A stretch of 27,133 nucleotides of DNA, from contig JAIDJZ010000193.1 of assembly GCA_029051965.1 (NCBI GenBank), positions 1 to 27,133 on the forward strand. Reading direction: 5' to 3'. The DNA comes from Paramuribaculum sp. (GTDB lineage: Bacteria; Bacteroidota; Bacteroidia; Bacteroidales; Muribaculaceae). Made by a program: the position numbers and the translations under genes. Positions 1-8,279 of the stretch are shown piece after piece (position 1 is the first letter of the stretch; each line of letters opens with the position of its first letter). Below the pieces are notes generated by a model. It was given only the letters and a program-made list of their open reading frames with translations, searched no databases and was not told the DNA's origin.

Positions 1-942
1 GAGATCGGGCTGTTCTTCCGGAACGAGGATCGATTCGAGAGTTGAAAGTTTCGAAACTTCTTTGGTGCGGAAGTTGGCGGGTTCGTCGAGCACGAGACCG
101 TCGCGGTTACCGAGGATGTTGGTTGAGAACCATCCTGACAGACCGAGGCAACGAGTGCCGATGATGGGGGCGAAACCTGATTTAACAAGAGTCTGTCCGG
201 TCTTGAAGTCTTTACCGGCGATAGGCATCTTGGTCTGTTCCGAAAGTTCCCACATTGCGGGAATGTCGACAGTTGTGTTGGGAGCACCCATGATGAAGGG
301 AGCACCTTCTTTAAGAGCTGCGTAGGCATAGCACATCGAAGGAGCGATGTGTTCCTTGTCGTCAGCTTTCATTGCGGCTTCGAGCGATTCGACTGTAGCG
401 TGGATCTTGTCGTCAACCGGCACATATACTTCAGTAGAAGCAGCCCAGAGCACTACAACGCGGTCGCAGCCGTTCTTTTCCTTGAAGTCGCGGATATCTT
501 TGCGGAGGTTTTCAACCATTTCCCAGCGGGTAGCATCCTTCATGATGTTTTCTCCGTCGAGACGCTTTGCATAGTTGTGGTCGAAAGCGGCCTTCATCGG
601 TTTGATGGCTTCGAGCTCATCTTTGACCGGATTGATGTCTTTTTCTTTGAGAACTTCAGCGTTGATGGCGCTTTCGTAGGCGTTGGCAGGATAAACGTCC
701 CATGCTCCGAAGACGATGTCATCGAGTTTTGCGATAGGCGCGATTTCGTCGTATTTCAGATATTTTTTGTCAGCACCTTTGCCAACACGGATTTTGTCAT
801 ATTGGGTCATCGAGCCCACGGGCTTGGAAAGACCTTTGCGGGCCATAAGCACGCCGGTCATGAATGTTGAAGTAACGGCTCCGAGTCCAACTACGAGGAC
901 GCCGAGTTTACCTTCTGCAGGTTTTACGTCAGTTGCCTTCAT
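1..942 (-). CDS. myo-inositol-1-phosphate synthase (partial, C-terminus outside window)
   Basis: Inositol-3-phosphate synthase converts glucose 6-phosphate to inositol 1-phosphate in an NAD-dependent reaction and is the committed step for inositol lipids. The 314 residues visible begin at an ATG at 940-942 and run off the window edge; the family is usually about 430 residues. The N-terminal Rossmann motif GLGAVTST is at residues 19-26. Later segments typical of the family are APNTTVD and the GKDFKTGQT signature, followed by GTRCLGLSGW, all before the cut. The gene is last in the minus-strand inositol cluster, separated from the HAD gene by 224 bp that contains its own promoter-like element. 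Identification is from conserved motifs; it is confident. Confidence 0.93.
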   Translation of the reverse strand, partial: MKATDVKPAEGKLGVLVVGLGAVTSTFMTGVLMARKGLSKPVGSMTQYDKIRVGKGADKKYLKYDEIAPIAKLDDIVFGAWDVYPANAYESAINAEVLKEKDINPVKDELEAIKPMKAAFDHNYAKRLDGENIMKDATRWEMVENLRKDIRDFKEKNGCDRVVVLWAASTEVYVPVDDKIHATVESLEAAMKADDKEHIAPSMCYAYAALKEGAPFIMGAPNTTVDIPAMWELSEQTKMPIAGKDFKTGQTLVKSGFAPIIGTRCLGLSGWFSTNILGNRDGLVLDEPANFRTKEVSKLSTLESILVPEEQPDL

Positions 943-984
943 AAATTTAAATTGATAGTATATATTTTGTTCTATTTTAAGGTT

Positions 985-1003
985 AAAAGCCGACTGGCTT
1001 TAG
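985..1003 (-). other. short hairpin in the leader of the inositol phosphate synthase gene
   Basis: On the minus strand TAAAGCC, a loop AGTC and GGCTTTTA form a 7-bp stem ending in four T residues. It lies between the proposed promoter and the ATG of the inositol phosphate synthase gene. It could be a weak terminator for the upstream transcript or a leader attenuator; the tail is too short to decide. Confidence 0.35.
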
Positions 1004-1025
1004 TTGTGCCCGAGAAAAGAGCGTG

Positions 1026-1055
1026 TAAAAGTACGCTATATAATCCAATTGCAAA
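1026..1055 (-). promoter_or_regulatory. putative promoter for the inositol phosphate synthase gene
   Basis: On the minus strand TTTG (1052-1055) is followed after 18 bases by TACTTTTA (1026-1033), a 7-of-8 match to the Bacteroides -7 box TAnnTTTG. Predicted transcription would start near 1019 and give a leader of about 77 nt that includes a small hairpin. The rest of the 943-1166 gap is AT-rich and holds no gene that I can support. Confidence 0.5.
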
Positions 1056-1166
1056 AATTTTATACTTTAATATTTTCTTATTTTTGTTACTGTTGTTTAA
1101 AAACAGCGCAATTAGATGTGATTTTAGTTTGCAAACGTTAAAAACTGGCGCGTTTTTGTTAATGGT

Positions 1167-1871
1167 TTATAATGCTACGTCGAGAACTTCATTAAGTCTT
1201 TTTATCATCGATGGGTCCTCTGCGGCATCTTCTTCGGCTGTCCAGCCTTTGCCTTTGAGCCAGGCGGTCGGACATCCGATCGATCGGGCGGGAAGTATGT
1301 CTTTTTTGAGGCTGTCGCCGATGACAAGCACTTCTTCAGGCTCATAGCCGAGTGCGACGACTCCGAGGCGGAAGATGGTCGGATCAGGCTTGCGGATTCC
1401 GACAACGGCGCTTTCGATGATTCCCTTGAAATAACGGCGCAGATCGAAGTCCCGCAGTACGGAATCGACGTTGCCGTAGAAGTTGGAGACGAGCATCATC
1501 GGGTAGCGTGATGCGAGAATCTCGAGTGTGGGCCGAGCCTCTTCGATCGATTCGCGGGCTGCGTTGTAGCAGTATCCGGCTATTGGTTCAGTGAACTTCC
1601 CGATTGCTTCGGCGGGAATATGGCTGTTGTCGGCGAGCCATTTAAGTTCGATTTCGATTTTCTTTATCAGAAGATCATGGAAATTATCGTTCGGAAGAAT
1701 GTGGCGCACGCGTGCCAGTTCGCGTTCGGCAAAGACGTAGGCCTCGCGGAATGTCAATTTGTCAATGCCGACATTGCAGCTTTTATAGCCGTCCCAGATT
1801 ATTTCGCTCCAGTGGACGCCGCGGCTGTCGATAGTGCCGCCGTAGTCGAAGATGATTCCTTTCAGTTTCAT
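1167..1871 (-). CDS. HAD-family hydrolase (putative phosphatase)
   Basis: This 234-residue protein is a haloacid-dehalogenase-fold hydrolase, probably a phosphatase. Motif I is FDYGGTID with nucleophile D9; motif II has S129 in LVSN; motif III has K161 in RKPDP; motif IV is GDSLKKD at 185-191. A helical cap lies between residues 15 and 110. The usual second aspartate of motif I (two residues after D9) is glycine, so the general acid/base is missing or supplied from elsewhere; this may affect whether it is a fast phosphatase. It is encoded between a lipid phosphatidyltransferase and inositol phosphate synthase, so dephosphorylation of inositol phosphate or of a phosphoinositol lipid is a reasonable guess. 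The start codon abuts a palindromic element. Substrate unknown. Confidence 0.85.
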   Translation of the reverse strand: MKLKGIIFDYGGTIDSRGVHWSEIIWDGYKSCNVGIDKLTFREAYVFAERELARVRHILPNDNFHDLLIKKIEIELKWLADNSHIPAEAIGKFTEPIAGYCYNAARESIEEARPTLEILASRYPMMLVSNFYGNVDSVLRDFDLRRYFKGIIESAVVGIRKPDPTIFRLGVVALGYEPEEVLVIGDSLKKDILPARSIGCPTAWLKGKGWTAEEDAAEDPSMIKRLNEVLDVAL

Positions 1872-2007
1872 AAGTAAGAGTTCAAATTTAAACGATAGTA
1901 AGTGAACGAAAATCTTTTATACAATCTGCTGCTTCTTTTCTCTGCCGATTCCGGTGCGGAGAAAATAAGCTCGCATATTGTATAAATTAAATTTGAACAC
2001 TTACTTA
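1871..2007. repeat. 137-bp palindromic element (MITE-like or structured RNA)
   Basis: The ends, 1871-1891 and 1987-2007, are inverted repeats of 21 bp that match at 20 positions (outer sequence TAAGTAAG, inner TTCAAATTTAA). Inside them a second perfect 10-bp inverted pair TTTATACAAT / ATTGTATAAA and a third central stem around TCTCTGC / GCGGAGA are nested, so the whole segment can fold into one long hairpin. The outermost bases are TA on both sides, as in elements that target TA. It fills most of the 146-bp gap between the HAD and phosphatidyltransferase genes and its edge overlaps the last base of the HAD start codon. Confidence 0.7.
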
Positions 2008-2017
2008 ATTAAATAGT

Positions 2018-3001
2018 TTAGAACTTGCCTTCTTTCAGTTCGCGTGTGAAGAAACGGCAGATGCGTTCGTGACGGACGATCATATAGATGAGGAGGATGT
2101 TGAGGACGGTCAGTTCGAAGGCGAAATAGAGCCAGGGCATCTGGAGGAACAGCGAAGTGAAAAGTGCGATAGTTCGCCAGTTGAATGAAAGTATATTGGT
2201 ATATTTCATCAGCGGGAGCGATTTCCGGCGGAATGCTTCGCGGAAGCTCGTCGGTATTTGTCCGTCAGGGAATCTGTCGCTGAGTTCGCGGCGGAGAGTC
2301 TGCATTGCGGGAGCAGTGGCTTCCTGCTGAAGGGTGTAGTTCGTATAGGTCGACAGTGTCAGTTTTTTCCAGAAGTTTCCTTTCCAGCTCAGTTCACTCA
2401 GCTGTTTTTTCAGCTGTGAGCCGCTGTCGAGTTCGCTTCCTTCCTCACCCTTGAGGAAATAGAGATGGAACTGGCGGTAGTAGTCGGCCATGGCTGCCTG
2501 TTTTGCATGGCAGAGTCCGGTAATGACTGCAGTAACCCAGATCACCCAGTGGTGGGCCATGAAGAATTCGGAGGTGACGTTCTCTCTCAGACAGATTGCT
2601 ACATAGATTGCGGCGAACCAGAAGTCTCCGCTGAGGCCGTCGAGAATTCGTCCGATGCGCGAATACTGTCTGGTCATTCGGGCGAGCTGGCCGTCGGCAC
2701 TGTCAAACGAGTTTGCCCAGATGAGCAGCAACATTCCGACGATGTTGAGCCACAGATCGGAGAAATAGAACATAACACCGGCTCCGAGACCGAGGAAGAT
2801 CGAAGCGATAGTAATGACATTTGGGGTGATGCCCAATTTTTTAGCGAGGCAGGCCCATGCATAGCCGATCGGACGGTAGAAGGCGAGGTCGATATGCTCT
2901 TCAGTGTCCATCGACTTCAATGAGTCGCGATAAGATGAGGAGGATGTTGAGGAGGAGTTTTCGTTGGATGATATCTTATTGTCTGAAATCATTTTATTCA
3001 A
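2018..3001 (-). CDS. CDP-alcohol phosphatidyltransferase family protein (candidate phosphoinositol lipid synthase)
   Basis: Integral membrane enzyme of 327 residues that probably transfers a phospho-alcohol from a CDP-activated donor. The family signature is visible as D100-SA-D103-G-QL-AR, eight residues, G117, then D121. The fourth aspartate, normally four residues after the third, is glycine (G125), with D126 one place later. About six hydrophobic segments occur (near 48-58, 62-95, 127-138, 150-163, 275-310). The N-terminus is serine-rich and low complexity; the stretch 165-270 is a long polar insert, making the protein larger than typical 200-residue phosphatidyltransferases. Position beside inositol phosphate synthase suggests inositol phosphate as head group, with a CDP-inositol or CDP-diacylglycerol donor. 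The gene overlaps the acyltransferase by 4 bp (ATGA), so it is probably translationally coupled. Confidence 0.85.
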   Translation of the reverse strand: MNKMISDNKISSNENSSSTSSSSYRDSLKSMDTEEHIDLAFYRPIGYAWACLAKKLGITPNVITIASIFLGLGAGVMFYFSDLWLNIVGMLLLIWANSFDSADGQLARMTRQYSRIGRILDGLSGDFWFAAIYVAICLRENVTSEFFMAHHWVIWVTAVITGLCHAKQAAMADYYRQFHLYFLKGEEGSELDSGSQLKKQLSELSWKGNFWKKLTLSTYTNYTLQQEATAPAMQTLRRELSDRFPDGQIPTSFREAFRRKSLPLMKYTNILSFNWRTIALFTSLFLQMPWLYFAFELTVLNILLIYMIVRHERICRFFTRELKEGKF

Positions 3002-3885
3002 TTTTTAGGAGCTGGATTTACTGGATTGTCGCGCAACTCATAGGTTTTCTGACGGAGGTATTGGCCGAGTTGTTCGATAGAGCCGCTATGGGCTTCCTGT
3101 TCGGCGACAGTGATCGGATTTCCGATTGAGATGTGGAGTTCTTTTCCGTTTTTGCGGAAAACTTCTGCCGGCAGGCGCAAAGAGCGGGCGGGCCAGCAGA
3201 CAACTCCGAGAATGTTACACCACCAGCTGTTTGAGCCGTGGAAGAATACCGGAATCACCGGAACTTTCGATTTGGCAATGATCTGAAGAACCGATTTCTG
3301 CCATTCGCGGTCCTGGAGACGTCCGCGCCAGTTGACTTTGCTCATGGCTCCGGCCGGGAAGAATCCGAGTGGTTCGCCATCTTTGATCTGTTTGATGCAT
3401 TCGCGTATACCTTTGACCGACTGGGCTTTTTTAGCGGGATCATTCGACGGGATAGGGTCGACGGCGATGAAGTTGGGGCGCATTCCTGAGATGTAGTTGA
3501 GGATCATGTTGACCATCACACGGAATTTCGGGCGGCGGGTGCCGAAGAGGTAAATGAGAGCGATTCCGTCGAGCGCGCCGAACGGATGATTGCTGATTGT
3601 TATGAACGGACCTTCGGGAAGATTGTCGAGAAGCTCGGCGTTGTCAACGCGAAGTGTGTTGTGGAATTCCTGAAAAAGCAGTTTTTCGGTGCATTTGGGT
3701 CCGGGTTCAGAGCAGCTGTTGGCATGTACCCGGTTGACTTTGTCGACGGAGAGAAGGCGTAGGAGAAAGTTGACAAGACGGGGATGTCCGTCAAGTTTAG
3801 GCACCATTCGCCGTATGTCGTCATAGTTGAGGACATCGGGTTTGATTTCAGACTTACAGGAATTAGAGTTCTTTTCTTCAGACAT
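2998..3885 (-). CDS. lysophospholipid/glycerol acyltransferase family protein
   Basis: This 295-residue protein has the PlsC-type acyltransferase core. The catalytic block is ISNHPFGALDG with H100 and D106, i.e. HX5D instead of HX4D; the NHPxGxxD form is known from hemolysin/OlsB-like acyltransferases. A second block FFPAGA is at 175-180, then VPVIPVFFHGSNS at 208-220. No signal peptide is evident; the protein is likely peripheral on the inner face of the membrane. It sits between GtrA and the CDP-alcohol transferase in the inositol operon, so it may acylate a glycerol or amine of the lipid made here. It could equally be a housekeeping lysophosphatidic acid acyltransferase; the operon favours a specialised role. 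Confidence 0.82.
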   Translation of the reverse strand: MSEEKNSNSCKSEIKPDVLNYDDIRRMVPKLDGHPRLVNFLLRLLSVDKVNRVHANSCSEPGPKCTEKLLFQEFHNTLRVDNAELLDNLPEGPFITISNHPFGALDGIALIYLFGTRRPKFRVMVNMILNYISGMRPNFIAVDPIPSNDPAKKAQSVKGIRECIKQIKDGEPLGFFPAGAMSKVNWRGRLQDREWQKSVLQIIAKSKVPVIPVFFHGSNSWWCNILGVVCWPARSLRLPAEVFRKNGKELHISIGNPITVAEQEAHSGSIEQLGQYLRQKTYELRDNPVNPAPKN

Positions 3886-3945
3886 TTATCGTAATAGTTG
3901 GTGTGGAGATTAGGATTCGGGGCAATGGATTACCGACATTTCCGG

Positions 3946-4488
3946 TCAGTGTCTCAGCGGATTTTTCAGCGACGGGCAGAGCAGGTTCATGATCCTTATT
4001 GCCTTTTGGTCGAATTTAGTAGGTCGATAGACGAAATAGCGCTGGAGAAGGAAGTTCCAGAACCATGAAACCATGATCGAGACAGTCAGACGGGCGGCGG
4101 CATAATAGCCGTCGGGTTTGAATCCGAGTGAGTCAAGCCAGTGCCAGCGTGAGAGAACGGCATAGAGTCCCTCGGTTCCCGCCGAATTAAGAAACATGCT
4201 TCCGCACCATACCAATATGTATTTGACAATCACTGCCTTCCACGAACAATTGGTCGCACGGAAAGTGAAGCGATAGTTGAGAATGCAGTTGAGGATGCCT
4301 CCGGCGATGGCCCCTATCGCAGTCGAGAGCCACACAGGAAAACCGAGGAAAGCGAAAAGGAGGAATCCGGTGAGCATGTCGAGGATTCCGGATGATTGCG
4401 AAGAGAATCCGCTACGCAGAAACGTATAGAAGATCTTGTCGCTTTTCAGGAGATTGTCGCTTACGTCGCGGAGTTTTGTCATTTTCAA
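3946..4488 (-). CDS. GtrA-like membrane protein
   Basis: A 180-residue protein with four hydrophobic segments (roughly 36-55, 57-75, 88-105, 131-155) and the GtrA/DPMS hallmark NYRFTFR-like block after the second segment, ending with WNFLLQRYFVYR. GtrA proteins are thought to help move polyprenyl- or lipid-linked sugars across membranes, or to support glycosyltransferases. No glycosyltransferase lies next to it here; it is instead embedded between an ATP-grasp gene and an acyltransferase, 59 bp and 60 bp from them. A flippase-like role for an inositol lipid is conceivable but unproven. The family call is firm, the function is not. Confidence 0.8.
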   Translation of the reverse strand: MKMTKLRDVSDNLLKSDKIFYTFLRSGFSSQSSGILDMLTGFLLFAFLGFPVWLSTAIGAIAGGILNCILNYRFTFRATNCSWKAVIVKYILVWCGSMFLNSAGTEGLYAVLSRWHWLDSLGFKPDGYYAAARLTVSIMVSWFWNFLLQRYFVYRPTKFDQKAIRIMNLLCPSLKNPLRH

Positions 4489-4547
4489 TCGGATTTGTGG
4501 AAAAGAGTCACGGTCTGACCGTCAGTGAGAGCGGGATGACGGGGCGA

Positions 4548-5417
4548 TCAGCCGACAGAGTGTTTCTTTATCTCATTCATTATCGCTTTGGCGATGTGCG
4601 GGGCGGCTTCATTGCGGCATGGAGCGAAACTCGGCCAGTCGTTGAAGTCGATGATGCGGATGTCGCCCTGAGGCGAGACGATGCAGTCTCCGCCGTAGAT
4701 CTTGACGTCGAGAACTTCCGACGCTTTCTGACAGATGTTTTTGAGCTGGTTGACGTCGAAATGCAGTCCCTGTGAACGTCCGTTGATCGCTTCATGGCCA
4801 TATTTGCTGTGACCAAGATCGAAGGGATAGAACCAGTAGAAGAACGGAGAATCCTGGACACCGTAGAATTTGATAAGATCACCTTCGAGGTGGCGGTTGA
4901 TGACGGCGCGTTTTATGCCTCTGAGGAAGTATTCCTGAAGAACTTCCTGCGCTTCTTCGGGGTGGCGCACATAGCTGACATCCTCTTTATGCATTGCGTG
5001 GAAGTCGCCGCGCTTGATCCAGCACTGGTTCATCTTGAGCCGGGTGAGCTGGTCGCGGACACCTTCGTCAGTGTTGACAATGATGCTTTCCGGATAAGGG
5101 ATGCCGCATCCGACGAGAATGCGGGTCATTCGTTCACGTGTGCAGTTCTCGATTCCGTAGCCGGAATTAATGACGAGTGCGCCGGCGTCTTCAAGCTGCT
5201 GGAGTTTTTCGATCGACCGCTGCTCGCGACACATATTTATGATGATCCGCTCTTTGACCTGACCGGCGATAAGTTGTTCTTCACTTAGCGTGGTGACGGA
5301 GCAGCCTCTTTTTCTGAGCTGGTCCGCGACGAGATTGAAGATCGCAGCATCATTGCCGATGTGGTTTGGAGAGAATGCCCCGGCTCTCATGATGCCTGCT
5401 ATATTGATGTCTGCCAT
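4548..5417 (-). CDS. ATP-grasp family protein, possibly inositol-phosphate-kinase-like
   Basis: This 289-residue soluble protein has ATP-grasp features: ATP-binding K135 followed by a small loop RGDFH, a strand HLEGDLIKFYGV with K183, and a metal-binding end GGDCIV (D244) with IDFNDWP (D257, N259). The D-x-N pair in the last motif, and the H-x-x-x-x-L-I-K-F-Y arrangement, resemble inositol 1,3,4-trisphosphate 5/6-kinases (ITPK), where the end reads DINxFPG, more than RimK or glutathione synthase, where it is usually ExN. Context in an inositol gene cluster makes an inositol phosphate kinase attractive. Peptide or amino-acid ligase activity remains possible, since most bacterial ATP-grasp enzymes are ligases. 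It starts at ATG 5415-5417, 81 bp after the nucleotidyltransferase. Confidence 0.8.
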   Translation of the reverse strand: MADINIAGIMRAGAFSPNHIGNDAAIFNLVADQLRKRGCSVTTLSEEQLIAGQVKERIIINMCREQRSIEKLQQLEDAGALVINSGYGIENCTRERMTRILVGCGIPYPESIIVNTDEGVRDQLTRLKMNQCWIKRGDFHAMHKEDVSYVRHPEEAQEVLQEYFLRGIKRAVINRHLEGDLIKFYGVQDSPFFYWFYPFDLGHSKYGHEAINGRSQGLHFDVNQLKNICQKASEVLDVKIYGGDCIVSPQGDIRIIDFNDWPSFAPCRNEAAPHIAKAIMNEIKKHSVG

Positions 5418-5498
5418 ATGAAGATTTGTGGAGTGATGATTGGTAGTGGGGGAATTGGAATAAAATGGTGTTTAGGGTGGCGGATCAGGCAAGACCGC

Positions 5499-6203
5499 TC
5501 AGTCTTTGCTTTGTAGGAATTTTTCGGCAGTTTCGATGTCGCCAGCGTGGTCGACATCGACAATTTTGCTGAAGGGAAATGCTTTCAGTCTCATGCCTTC
5601 TTCGACCAGCGCACGCTGATAGTTGCGCATGCGGCTGACTCCGCGGTCCATGCAGTCCGAGAGTATATCCAGTGCCCGGGGTGTCAGACCATAGATTCCT
5701 CCGGAAATGAACCTGACTCCTTCGAAGGATTTGTCGCAGAAAGCCGTGATGTCCATCTTTTCGTTTACGTCGATATAGAGGGGTTTTTCGTCGTCGATAA
5801 AAGAGGTTACTGCCATGTAGCCGTCGGCTTCGCTGTCTTTTTCGAACGCATCGACGTAGCGGCGGAAATCTTCCGGACGGAAAATTGTGTCGACGGTGGT
5901 CAGAATGAATTTGCCGTTGTCGAACCCGCGGCTGACTTCATAGAAGCTGTGCATTGAACTCGGAGTCGATCTGACGACGAGATTAAACGGAACGGGCAGA
6001 GAAAGAGATTCGAGATATTCTCTGACTTCTGTCATCTGCTCGTTGACAATGATGCTCAGAGACGTGGGGTTGCAGTCCATCATTATGTCGATGAGGCGTC
6101 GGATCATCGGCTTGCCGCAGAGACTGACAAGCGGTTTGGGGAGCTGCACACCCTCCTGGGCGAGTCTTGAACCTTCGCCGGCTGCTATTATCGCGTAGTT
6201 CAT
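5499..6203 (-). CDS. nucleotidyltransferase (candidate inositol-1-phosphate cytidylyltransferase)
   Basis: A 234-residue protein of the NTP-transferase / GT-A fold. The nucleotide-binding signature AAGEGSRL is at 7-14 followed by PKP at 22-24; a metal aspartate lies in TVDT (D105) and another in DVDHAGD (D218). The family activates sugar or alcohol phosphates with NTPs. Because inositol phosphate synthase and a CDP-alcohol transferase share the operon, the best guess is CTP:inositol-1-phosphate cytidylyltransferase forming CDP-inositol, as in archaeal and thermophile di-inositol-phosphate pathways. A mannose or choline phosphate substrate cannot be excluded. It overlaps the pdxA stop by 4 bp (ATGA), implying translational coupling to pdxA. 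Confidence 0.82.
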   Translation of the reverse strand: MNYAIIAAGEGSRLAQEGVQLPKPLVSLCGKPMIRRLIDIMMDCNPTSLSIIVNEQMTEVREYLESLSLPVPFNLVVRSTPSSMHSFYEVSRGFDNGKFILTTVDTIFRPEDFRRYVDAFEKDSEADGYMAVTSFIDDEKPLYIDVNEKMDITAFCDKSFEGVRFISGGIYGLTPRALDILSDCMDRGVSRMRNYQRALVEEGMRLKAFPFSKIVDVDHAGDIETAEKFLQSKD

Positions 6204-7306
6204 GCTTCGTCGGTTGATTTTGTTAGGTCGAGAACGACGTTGTCTTTTTTATTGCGTTCGACATATTGTTTACGCAGCGGATTGCGGGTAATTTCCCTGT
6301 GCTGTTTTCTGGAACGGATGATGTCGATTGCCCGATAGATTGCCTGGCGCATTGATTCTTCCGAGGCCTCTCCTTTTCCTGCGATGTCGAATCCGGTTCC
6401 GTGGTCGGGCGATGTTCTGACGAAGGGAAGGCCTGAGGTCACGTTGACACCCGCATCCATGGCGAGGGCCTTGAACGGTGCGAGACCCTGATCGTGGTAC
6501 ATGGCGAGAATTCCGTCGAATTTCTTCCACTGTCCGCTGCCGAAAAATCCGTCGGACGCAAACGGGCCGAAGCAATTTATTTTTGAGTTGCGGGCATTCT
6601 CAATCGCGGGGATGATTTCGTTTTTCTCTTCAGTTCCGATCAGTCCGTTTTCGCCACTGTGGGGATTGAGGGAGAGAACGGCTATTCTGGGATGCGGAAT
6701 GCCGAAATCTTTTTCAAGAGCGGAGTTGAAGTCGCGGATTCTGGATTCGACTTTATCGGCCGTGATTTCCGAAGCGACGGATGCAAGCGGAGTGTGGATT
6801 GTGACCAGTGCCACGCGCATATTCTCCGAAGAGAGAATCATCAGAGCTTTCTCGCCGTTTTCAGCCAGTGAGGCTTCGAGGTATTCTGTGTGGCCGGGAA
6901 ATGTGAACTCTCCGCTCTGGATCGTTGCTTTGTTGATCGGGGCAGTTACGATTGCGTCGATATTCTCCGCTCTCATGTCGGCGACGGCTGCTTCCAATGC
7001 GATAAAAGCTGCTTTTCCGGCTTCTTGCGATGGATTGCCCGGTTCGACTTTCAGCGATTCGTCAATGACATTTATAATGTTGACCTGATCAGGGCGGGCA
7101 TTGTCCGGCGTCTGAATCTGATGGAGAGGAAACTGACTGATGTCAGACAGTTTTCTATAGTGATTGGCAATTTTTGCCGACCCATATATAATAGGTGTGC
7201 AAAGTTCCAGCATGCGGGGATCTTCCAGCGCCTTCAGGATAACTTCATATCCGATTCCGTTGGGATCGCCGTGGGTGATGCCTATTTTTATCTTATGTTG
7301 TGACAT
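6200..7306 (-). CDS. pdxA: 4-hydroxythreonine-4-phosphate dehydrogenase PdxA
   Basis: PdxA oxidises 4-phosphohydroxy-L-threonine with NAD in the deoxyxylulose-phosphate-dependent pathway to pyridoxal 5'-phosphate. The 368-residue length is normal for Bacteroidetes members. Conserved blocks include GITHGDPNGIGYE near the N-terminus, FPGHTEYLEA, TIHTPLASV, MYHDQGLAPFKAL and RTSPDHGTGFDIAG; the histidines in TIHTP, YHDQG and SPDHG are the metal ligands of the family. It is the first gene of the minus-strand unit leading into the inositol genes, with a 4-bp overlap to the nucleotidyltransferase. No pdxJ is present in the window. Identification is confident. Confidence 0.95.
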   Translation of the reverse strand: MSQHKIKIGITHGDPNGIGYEVILKALEDPRMLELCTPIIYGSAKIANHYRKLSDISQFPLHQIQTPDNARPDQVNIINVIDESLKVEPGNPSQEAGKAAFIALEAAVADMRAENIDAIVTAPINKATIQSGEFTFPGHTEYLEASLAENGEKALMILSSENMRVALVTIHTPLASVASEITADKVESRIRDFNSALEKDFGIPHPRIAVLSLNPHSGENGLIGTEEKNEIIPAIENARNSKINCFGPFASDGFFGSGQWKKFDGILAMYHDQGLAPFKALAMDAGVNVTSGLPFVRTSPDHGTGFDIAGKGEASEESMRQAIYRAIDIIRSRKQHREITRNPLRKQYVERNKKDNVVLDLTKSTDEA

Positions 7307-7665: not shown

Positions 7666-8172
7666 TCAACGATAGTCGGCAAAACGCTGTTGCAGAGCCT
7701 GGCGAGCGAAGAAAATGCGGCTCTTTACAGTGCCGAGGGGAAGCCCCATGTGGTCGGCTATTTCGTTATACTTATAGCCGGCTACGTGCATTGTGAACGG
7801 AACGCGATATTTTTCGGGAAATTCTTCGATGGCGGCGGAAATTTCGTTGACGCCGAAAGATCCTTCCGGAGTTTCGAAGCCGGAATCCTGCGGCAGATTA
7901 AGATGGTAGAGGTCTTCGGTACGGTCAACCACTGTTGCCGAGCGAACGACACGGCGGTAGTTGTTGATGAAGATATTGCGCATGATGGTGAAAACCCATC
8001 CCTTGAAGTTGGTGTTTTCGATATACTTGTCTTCGTTCGAAAGAACTTTGAGCATAGTGTCCTGCATAAGATCATATGCGTCATCGCGGTTGGATGTAAG
8101 AGTGTAGGCAAAGTTGAGCATATTGCTCTGGAGATCCATCAGGCGGTTGGAGAAATTAGTTGAAGCGTTCAT
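7666..8172 (-). CDS. RNA polymerase sigma factor, ECF-type sigma-70 family
   Basis: A 168-residue sigma-70 family protein. The N-terminal region 2 has the segment LTSNRDDAYDLMQDTMLKVL and the -10 recognition part FKGWVFTIMRNIFINNYRR; the C-terminal region 4 has AIEEFPEKYRVPFTMHVAGYKYNEIADHMG and the HTH end GTVKSRIFFARQALQ (quoted in parts). I chose ATG 8170-8172, giving MNASTNFSNRL, over an upstream in-frame ATG at 8274 because that position falls inside the predicted -33 region of the promoter. No anti-sigma gene adjoins it, so it may be one of the free-standing ECF factors common in Bacteroidales. It directs transcription of an unknown regulon. Confidence 0.9.
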   Translation of the reverse strand: MNASTNFSNRLMDLQSNMLNFAYTLTSNRDDAYDLMQDTMLKVLSNEDKYIENTNFKGWVFTIMRNIFINNYRRVVRSATVVDRTEDLYHLNLPQDSGFETPEGSFGVNEISAAIEEFPEKYRVPFTMHVAGYKYNEIADHMGLPLGTVKSRIFFARQALQQRFADYR

Positions 8173-8249
8173 GATAGCTGAGGTTTTATTGTAACCGAAA
8201 ATTGAGTTTGTCAGGTGTGCGACATTTGTGTTACAAACCGTTGACAATG

Positions 8250-8279
8250 CAAAGTTACAAAGAGAAATCCGCATGCAAA
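8250..8279 (-). promoter_or_regulatory. promoter of the sigma factor gene
   Basis: On the minus strand TTTG (8276-8279), 18 bases, then TAACTTTG (8250-8257) is a full match to the Bacteroides primary-sigma consensus. Transcription should start near 8243, leaving a leader of about 70 nt before the ATG at 8172. Confidence 0.7.

Follow-up and report, generated by a model that had tools for sequence, protein, structure and literature searches.

Gene content and layout of the locus

The stretch analysed here, which we call the window, covers 27,133 bases from the very start of contig C105 (window base 1 is contig base 1), which is 30,743 bases long and belongs to a Paramuribaculum genome that is 88% complete (G000). 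The ATP-grasp homologues place this genome close to Paramuribaculum, and its family and order are accordingly taken as Muribaculaceae and Bacteroidales. Between positions 7306 and 1 the window carries eight minus-strand open reading frames (ORFs), in the order given by the initial annotation. They form a real operon, a member of a published, unproven gene cluster. The operon's likely products are inositol-containing sphingolipids, made along a route that has been proposed but not proven. In the direction of transcription, the genes are:

6200..7306, minus strand: PdxA, 4-hydroxythreonine-4-phosphate dehydrogenase (TIGR00557, 377 bits against a cut-off of 290)
5499..6203, minus strand: nucleotidyltransferase (NTP transferase), probable CTP:inositol-phosphate cytidylyltransferase (NTP_transferase/NTP_transf_3)
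4548..5417, minus strand: ATP-grasp enzyme, its family having no Pfam model (RimK-family profile, predicted fold)
3946..4488, minus strand: GtrA-family membrane protein, peripheral (PF04138)
2998..3885, minus strand: acyltransferase (Acyltransf_2), GlsA/OlsF-like in its profile matches but far under both cut-offs, peripheral
2018..3001, minus strand: CDP-alcohol phosphotransferase (PT; CDP-OH_P_transf), starting at TTG 3001 or ATG 2992
1167..1871, minus strand: HAD hydrolase, predicted pathway phosphatase (Pfam HAD, motif I alignment)
1..942, minus strand: myo-inositol-phosphate synthase (MIPS), C-terminal part, truncated where the contig ends (PF07994, PF01658)

PdxA had been left unnamed, and the other seven assignments hold. 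Pfam recovers the inositol phosphate synthase (Inos-1-P synthase), phosphotransferase, HAD hydrolase, nucleotidyltransferase, GtrA (GtrA_DPMS_TM) and acyltransferase, while the ATP-grasp assignment draws on a RimK-family model that matches 26/26 aligned members and on an AlphaFold2 model with the ATP-grasp fold. The statement that several genes overlap by ATGA was wrong: the sole ATGA overlap is at the PdxA/NTP transferase junction. A TTGA overlap of acyltransferase and PT is conditional on the TTG start, the first ATG of PT lying downstream of the acyltransferase stop, and the remaining five junctions are gaps of 59–224 nt. A gene-neighbourhood survey, proposed earlier as a check, found the gene set in many genomes of the window's order; because of this recurrence across the order, the arrangement is not due to chance.

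Relation to published inositol-lipid clusters

The initial annotation had invoked a published pathway with a phosphatidylinositol-phosphate (PIP) intermediate and a second, proposed one, and both are indeed described. In Bacteroides thetaiotaomicron, the PIP route comprises a PIP synthase (PIPS), a PgpA-type phosphatase and an AUR1-like transferase (Heaver et al. 2022, PMC9246714). The same work names a putative alternative cluster in B. vulgatus and Prevotella, consisting of an NTP transferase, a PT and a HAD protein beside MIPS, wherein CDP-inositol and diacylglycerol would yield phosphatidylinositol (PI) and the HAD protein would then act in the manner of AUR1. Phosphoinositol dihydroceramide (PI-DHC) was confirmed by mass spectrometry in B. 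vulgatus and P. veroralis, species named with this alternative cluster (PMC9246714). In the window, NTP transferase, PT and HAD likewise occur together, with MIPS adjoining. The window adds GtrA and the acyltransferase to this set, and ‘ATP-grasp’ and ‘acyltransferase’ both have 0 occurrences in the main text of PMC9246714. The locus tags given there for B. vulgatus, BVU_RS13095 (NTP transferase), 13105 (PT) and 13115 (HAD), leave space for two genes, and we infer that an ATP-grasp gene and one for an LPG-synthase-type membrane protein fill these gaps. These two occupy the places between NTP transferase, PT and HAD in five loci (L023, L024, L029, L030 and L035). Of the first 20 loci fetched, 11 have the LPG-synthase-type gene between PT and HAD; the window does not have it.

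The window shares MIPS and a GtrA protein with the BT_1522-1526 operon of B. thetaiotaomicron (PMC9246714, PMC8791184); BT_1524 is described as a GtrA-family protein, and belongs to the same Pfam family as the window's. The predicted product class, phosphoinositol dihydroceramide, is also the same. In contrast to that operon, however, no AUR1-like gene is among the eight, and neither a BT_1523-type PIPS nor a PgpA-family PIP phosphatase (PF04608) was found in the 88%-complete genome of the window.

The ATP-grasp gene as a probable core partner

Gene distributions were compared in two main samples. In 159 genomes of the order (MIPS E<=1e-50; PIPS E<=1e-25), NTP transferase matches at E<=0.001 occurred in 94, of which 17 exceeded 150 bits and were taken as orthologues, the rest scoring at most 37.5 bits. 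A second sample held 149 genomes of the family (NTP transferase E<=1e-30; PT E<=1e-40). In the order sample, ATP-grasp was present in 18 genomes, MIPS in 23, NTP transferase orthologues in 17 and PIPS in 7. All 18 ATP-grasp genomes had MIPS (Fisher p 1.4e-19, only a guide given that the genomes are related), and the five MIPS genomes without ATP-grasp all carried PIPS. MIPS and ATP-grasp were each found in 16 of the 17 NTP transferase genomes. The exception for ATP-grasp, G187, has no MIPS match either and its cluster looks broken; we read it as a deletion or misassembly rather than as showing ATP-grasp to be dispensable. At its locus (L042), an open frame at 620-1897 joins the NTP transferase to the C-terminal half of PT, with neither ATP-grasp nor the PT signature region present and only a fragment of HAD left, as in a decayed cluster or a misassembly.

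Within the family, ATP-grasp is near-universal (139 of 149 genomes; 105/109 of those at least 90% complete and at most 5% contaminated), alongside MIPS in 127, NTP transferase in 118, PT in 117 and PIPS in 44. NTP transferase and PT coincide in 115 genomes, and every genome with NTP transferase or PIPS has ATP-grasp. ATP-grasp occurs without NTP transferase in 21 genomes: 17 of them have PIPS, and PT is in none of those 17; another, G429 (69% complete), has a partial ATP-grasp gene and PT. In a class-wide sample of 149 genomes, which included few order-mates, ATP-grasp was found in three, all of the same order, and in no genome of the other orders sampled.

Two loci (L035 and L041) encode NTP transferase–ATP-grasp fusions. 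From its distribution, ATP-grasp is likely a core partner of the NTP transferase route and its missing core gene; being core and fused to the NTP transferase, it more likely acts at the donor-making step. The earlier suggestion that it marks a further modified lipid is thus not supported as stated.

What does this protein do? That of the window has no Pfam match. Its AlphaFold2 model (predicted local distance difference test score, pLDDT, 90.9) comes closest to RimK, LysX and ArgX, and its best PDB sequence-profile match is ITPK. Neither family could simply be assigned: the window protein reaches 32.9 bits against the RimK-family model TIGR00768 (cut-off 143.4), and the ITPK model PF05770 matches 1/26 members, the most divergent one (L041), at 20.3 bits against a cut-off of 23, so that only a likeness was kept. 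The protein shares the ATP-grasp fold and the D-x-N metal motif with the ITPK/PPIP5K inositol phosphate kinases, the motif having aspartate, not glutamate, in 26/26 members, though its overall fold score is slightly closer to RimK-type ligases. Our best guess is an inositol(-phosphate) kinase, and we rate the chance that it phosphorylates an inositol compound as about even. By one account, inositol phosphate kinases had gone unreported outside eukaryotes before archaeal and viral finds (PMC10897400). Among the titles and abstract openings listed in searches of open-access papers aimed at this point, none linked an ATP-grasp gene to bacterial inositol lipids.

Predicted donor synthesis and a phosphotransferase without its catalytic aspartate

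The NTP transferase weakly matches the archaeal IPCT-DIPPS model. In its PDB profile matches, LicC and IPCT (2xme) come after glucose-1-phosphate and other sugar nucleotidyltransferases; with so many sugar nucleotidyltransferases among them, these neighbours were not decisive for nucleotide specificity. In one locus (L062, G406) NTP transferase and PT are fused, in the domain order of archaeal IPCT-DIPPS-type enzymes; archaeal proteins of the AF2299/IPCT-DIPPS kind carry an N-terminal cytidylyltransferase-like domain (PMC4634129). The PT model has the class I CDP-alcohol phosphotransferase fold with an extra helical insert, and is closer to AF2299 (4o6m) and IPCT-DIPPS (4mnd), a CDP-inositol user, than to PIP synthases; against the BT_1523-type PIP synthase model NF052561 it scores 25.8 bits (cut-off 350). 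Compared with IPCT-DIPPS, the window has the two domains encoded by separate genes, has lost the fourth signature aspartate and is predicted to use a lipid acceptor. The earlier remark that the nucleotidyltransferase suits CDP-inositol as donor gains indirect support from these modelled fold neighbours and the L062 fusion, and we are fairly confident that the lipid is made via CDP-inositol.

The class I signature, D1xxD2G1xxAR...G2xxxD3xxxD4, has eight absolutely conserved residues (PMC4634129), of which D4 is named as the catalytic base in structural papers on the family. PT of the window keeps seven; D4 is a glycine, as it is in 103/103 orthologous PT ORFs that have the motif. Since this glycine is invariant, another residue would have to act as the base; candidates, in the numbering of the PT alignment, are the invariant N-terminal D16-T-E-E, H149 and H163, and D110, which some members replace by N. 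Upstream of the cluster, two loci (L037 5522-6406 and L038 6370-7266) encode a further CDP-alcohol phosphotransferase, distantly related to PT, that has kept the D4 aspartate.

Which lipid is the acceptor? In B. vulgatus, ceramide phosphoinositol (Cer-PI) is reported at 1% of sphingolipids and diacyl PI as not detected, whereas B. thetaiotaomicron and B. ovatus have both (PMC10056535). Because B. vulgatus has Cer-PI without diacyl PI, we favour direct transfer of phosphoinositol to ceramide, which we regard as reasonably likely, and the modelled PT is predicted to be a CDP-inositol:dihydroceramide phosphoinositol transferase.

A proposed exchange of phosphatases

The HAD protein matches HAD families only in Pfam, with no AUR1-like domain found. 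Its motif I reads D-[YF]-G-[GA]-T in 16 aligned members and DYGGT in the window, with glycine at +2. We take aspartate to be usual at this position, and glycine there is presumably an unusual phosphatase signature.

In 24 genomes picked by hand, PgpA (PF04608) was found in 18/18 with PIPS and in 0/6 without (G000, G173, G394, G279, G207, G171). HAD in turn occurs in 16/16 uncut main-type NTP transferase clusters among L023-L041 (L031 is cut before HAD). It is in 0/9 searched stretches that have PIPS and neither PT nor NTP transferase (L028, L044-L047, L049, L052-L054), all nine of which also carry an AUR1-like gene, and in 0/6 searched stretches with a divergent NTP transferase (L056, L058-L062). 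That HAD is the pathway phosphatase appears somewhat more probable than not. In L033 (6415-8163), the LPG-synthase-type membrane protein and HAD lie in a single open frame; a HAD fusion in L034 was not called, its long frame overlapping PT in another frame.

Peripheral genes and neighbouring features

The GtrA + ACYLTRANSFERASE survey covered the best 80, by similarity to the window, of at least 569 ATP-grasp loci in named genome contigs, many of them cut by contig ends. PT was found in 80, HAD in 65, NTP transferase in 61, PdxA in 56 and MIPS in 49, GtrA in 12 and the acyltransferase, PIPS and an AUR1-like gene in 8 each. PdxA, first gene of the operon and a frequent neighbour, is unlikely to have a role in lipid synthesis. 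A PIPS/AUR1-like cassette is present in 6/8 acyltransferase loci. The exact gene order of the window recurs in two loci (L070, L101), and six (L072, L080, L100, L126, L129, L139) have GtrA-PIPS-AUR1-like-acyltransferase at the equivalent place. Because of this shared place, GtrA and the acyltransferase are, as judged from gene order, probably remnants of a PIPS cassette partly lost in the window. The acyltransferase had been read as a sign of a decorated lipid; being rare and mostly accompanied by the cassette, it no longer serves as one. L072, L080 and L126, the last from Paramuribaculum intestinale DSM 100749, are hybrid operons with NTP transferase, ATP-grasp, PT and HAD genes plus the cassette.

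Outside the operon, a match at 8250-8279 (minus strand) to what we take to be the Bacteroidetes-type promoter pattern overlaps the listed start of ORF 7666-8274, presumably sigma-factor-like, whose true start may lie further inside. The window has two such matches against 0.3 expected (two or more in 6/100 shuffles).

A proposed route and its alternatives

We infer every reaction of the proposed route from observed gene content, linkage, fusions, distribution and the D4-to-glycine change, and from predicted folds. MIPS would supply D-inositol 3-phosphate, and ATP-grasp would phosphorylate inositol or inositol phosphate, most simply placing a phosphate on O-1, which the NTP transferase would join with cytidine triphosphate (CTP) to give CDP-inositol or phosphorylated CDP-inositol. 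PT, using its alternative base, would move phosphoinositol to dihydroceramide directly, with no diacyl PI and no AUR1-type exchange. HAD would strip leftover phosphate, from inositol 3-phosphate before the kinase step or from the lipid later, a task akin to that of PgpA (BT_1525) in the PIP route. GtrA, the acyltransferase and PdxA would stand outside this core. As a whole, this combined account of a phosphoinositol sphingolipid is one that we hold tentatively, with slightly less than half our confidence. A bolder form, possible though doubtful, is that this ATP-grasp family, near-universal in Muribaculaceae, comprises inositol-phosphate kinases that re-phosphorylate the MIPS product to yield a eukaryote-like, D-1-linked CDP-inositol, from which the D4-less PT charges dihydroceramide in a second, independent route to inositol phosphoceramide.

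The route differs from the published model in HAD function and lipid acceptor. In that model, the NTP transferase makes CDP-inositol from the MIPS product, PT forms diacyl PI, HAD acts like AUR1 and ATP-grasp has no role. It predicts the absence of HAD from the nine PIPS-only stretches with their AUR1-like gene, but sits poorly with the lipids reported for B. vulgatus (PMC10056535), with the lack of an AUR1-like domain in HAD and with an ATP-grasp gene that tracks, and fuses with, the NTP transferase; we consider it improbable. The HAD/PIPS split does not decide by itself, because replacement of AUR1 by HAD predicts the same split. Within the family, ATP-grasp accompanies PIPS clusters as well, which leaves room for a decorating role. 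What does not fit a simple reading is that the last three of the 21 family genomes with ATP-grasp but without NTP transferase (G360, G379 and G395, all from a single genus) have ATP-grasp beside PdxA, with MIPS, PT and PIPS likewise not found in them. The corresponding stretches are L048, L050 and L051; the ATP-grasp neighbours in L050 are housekeeping-like ORFs, which we take to be FabH-, Era- and Der-like.

ATP-grasp could instead be a RimK-type ligase that couples the inositol lipid, or one of its precursors, to an amino acid or a comparable group, giving an aminoacylated phosphoinositol sphingolipid. Its closest structures and the RimK-family matches of all 26 members (that of the window protein below cut-off) fit this reading, and a decorating enzyme would also be retained in PIPS-type clusters of the family, as ATP-grasp is. 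The predicted intermediates bear no carboxylate, however, and the fusion to the NTP transferase, the aspartate of D-x-N and the absence of ATP-grasp from five order-sample PIPS genomes outside the family that lack the NTP transferase all speak against it, leaving this reading somewhat unlikely. A salvage kinase that phosphorylates free inositol, whether imported or released from phytate, and so feeds either route, would suit the presence of ATP-grasp with both cluster types in the family, and B. thetaiotaomicron, whose BT_1522-1526 cluster is without such a gene, makes only very minor use of exogenous inositol (PMC9246714). Yet salvage is not the sole use of ATP-grasp, because MIPS accompanies it in 18/18 order-sample genomes, and we deem this explanation unlikely. 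Least probable, and very much so, is that the NTP transferase activates another phosphate, such as a sugar 1-phosphate, the link to MIPS serving a different product. Its PDB matches would agree, but it is linked and fused to a CDP-alcohol phosphotransferase, MIPS is in 16/17 NTP transferase genomes, and two species named with the cluster make PI-DHC (PMC9246714).

Gut Bacteroidetes inositol lipids affect fitness within a mammalian host and antimicrobial-peptide resistance, and the pathway itself is already known, its second route being unproven (PMC9246714). New here are a core ATP-grasp partner, a PT family without the catalytic base, a proposed exchange of phosphatases and a different predicted acceptor. 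Together, these results raise the question of headgroup stereochemistry and identify an enzyme family that has lost the residue named as catalytic base in structural work.
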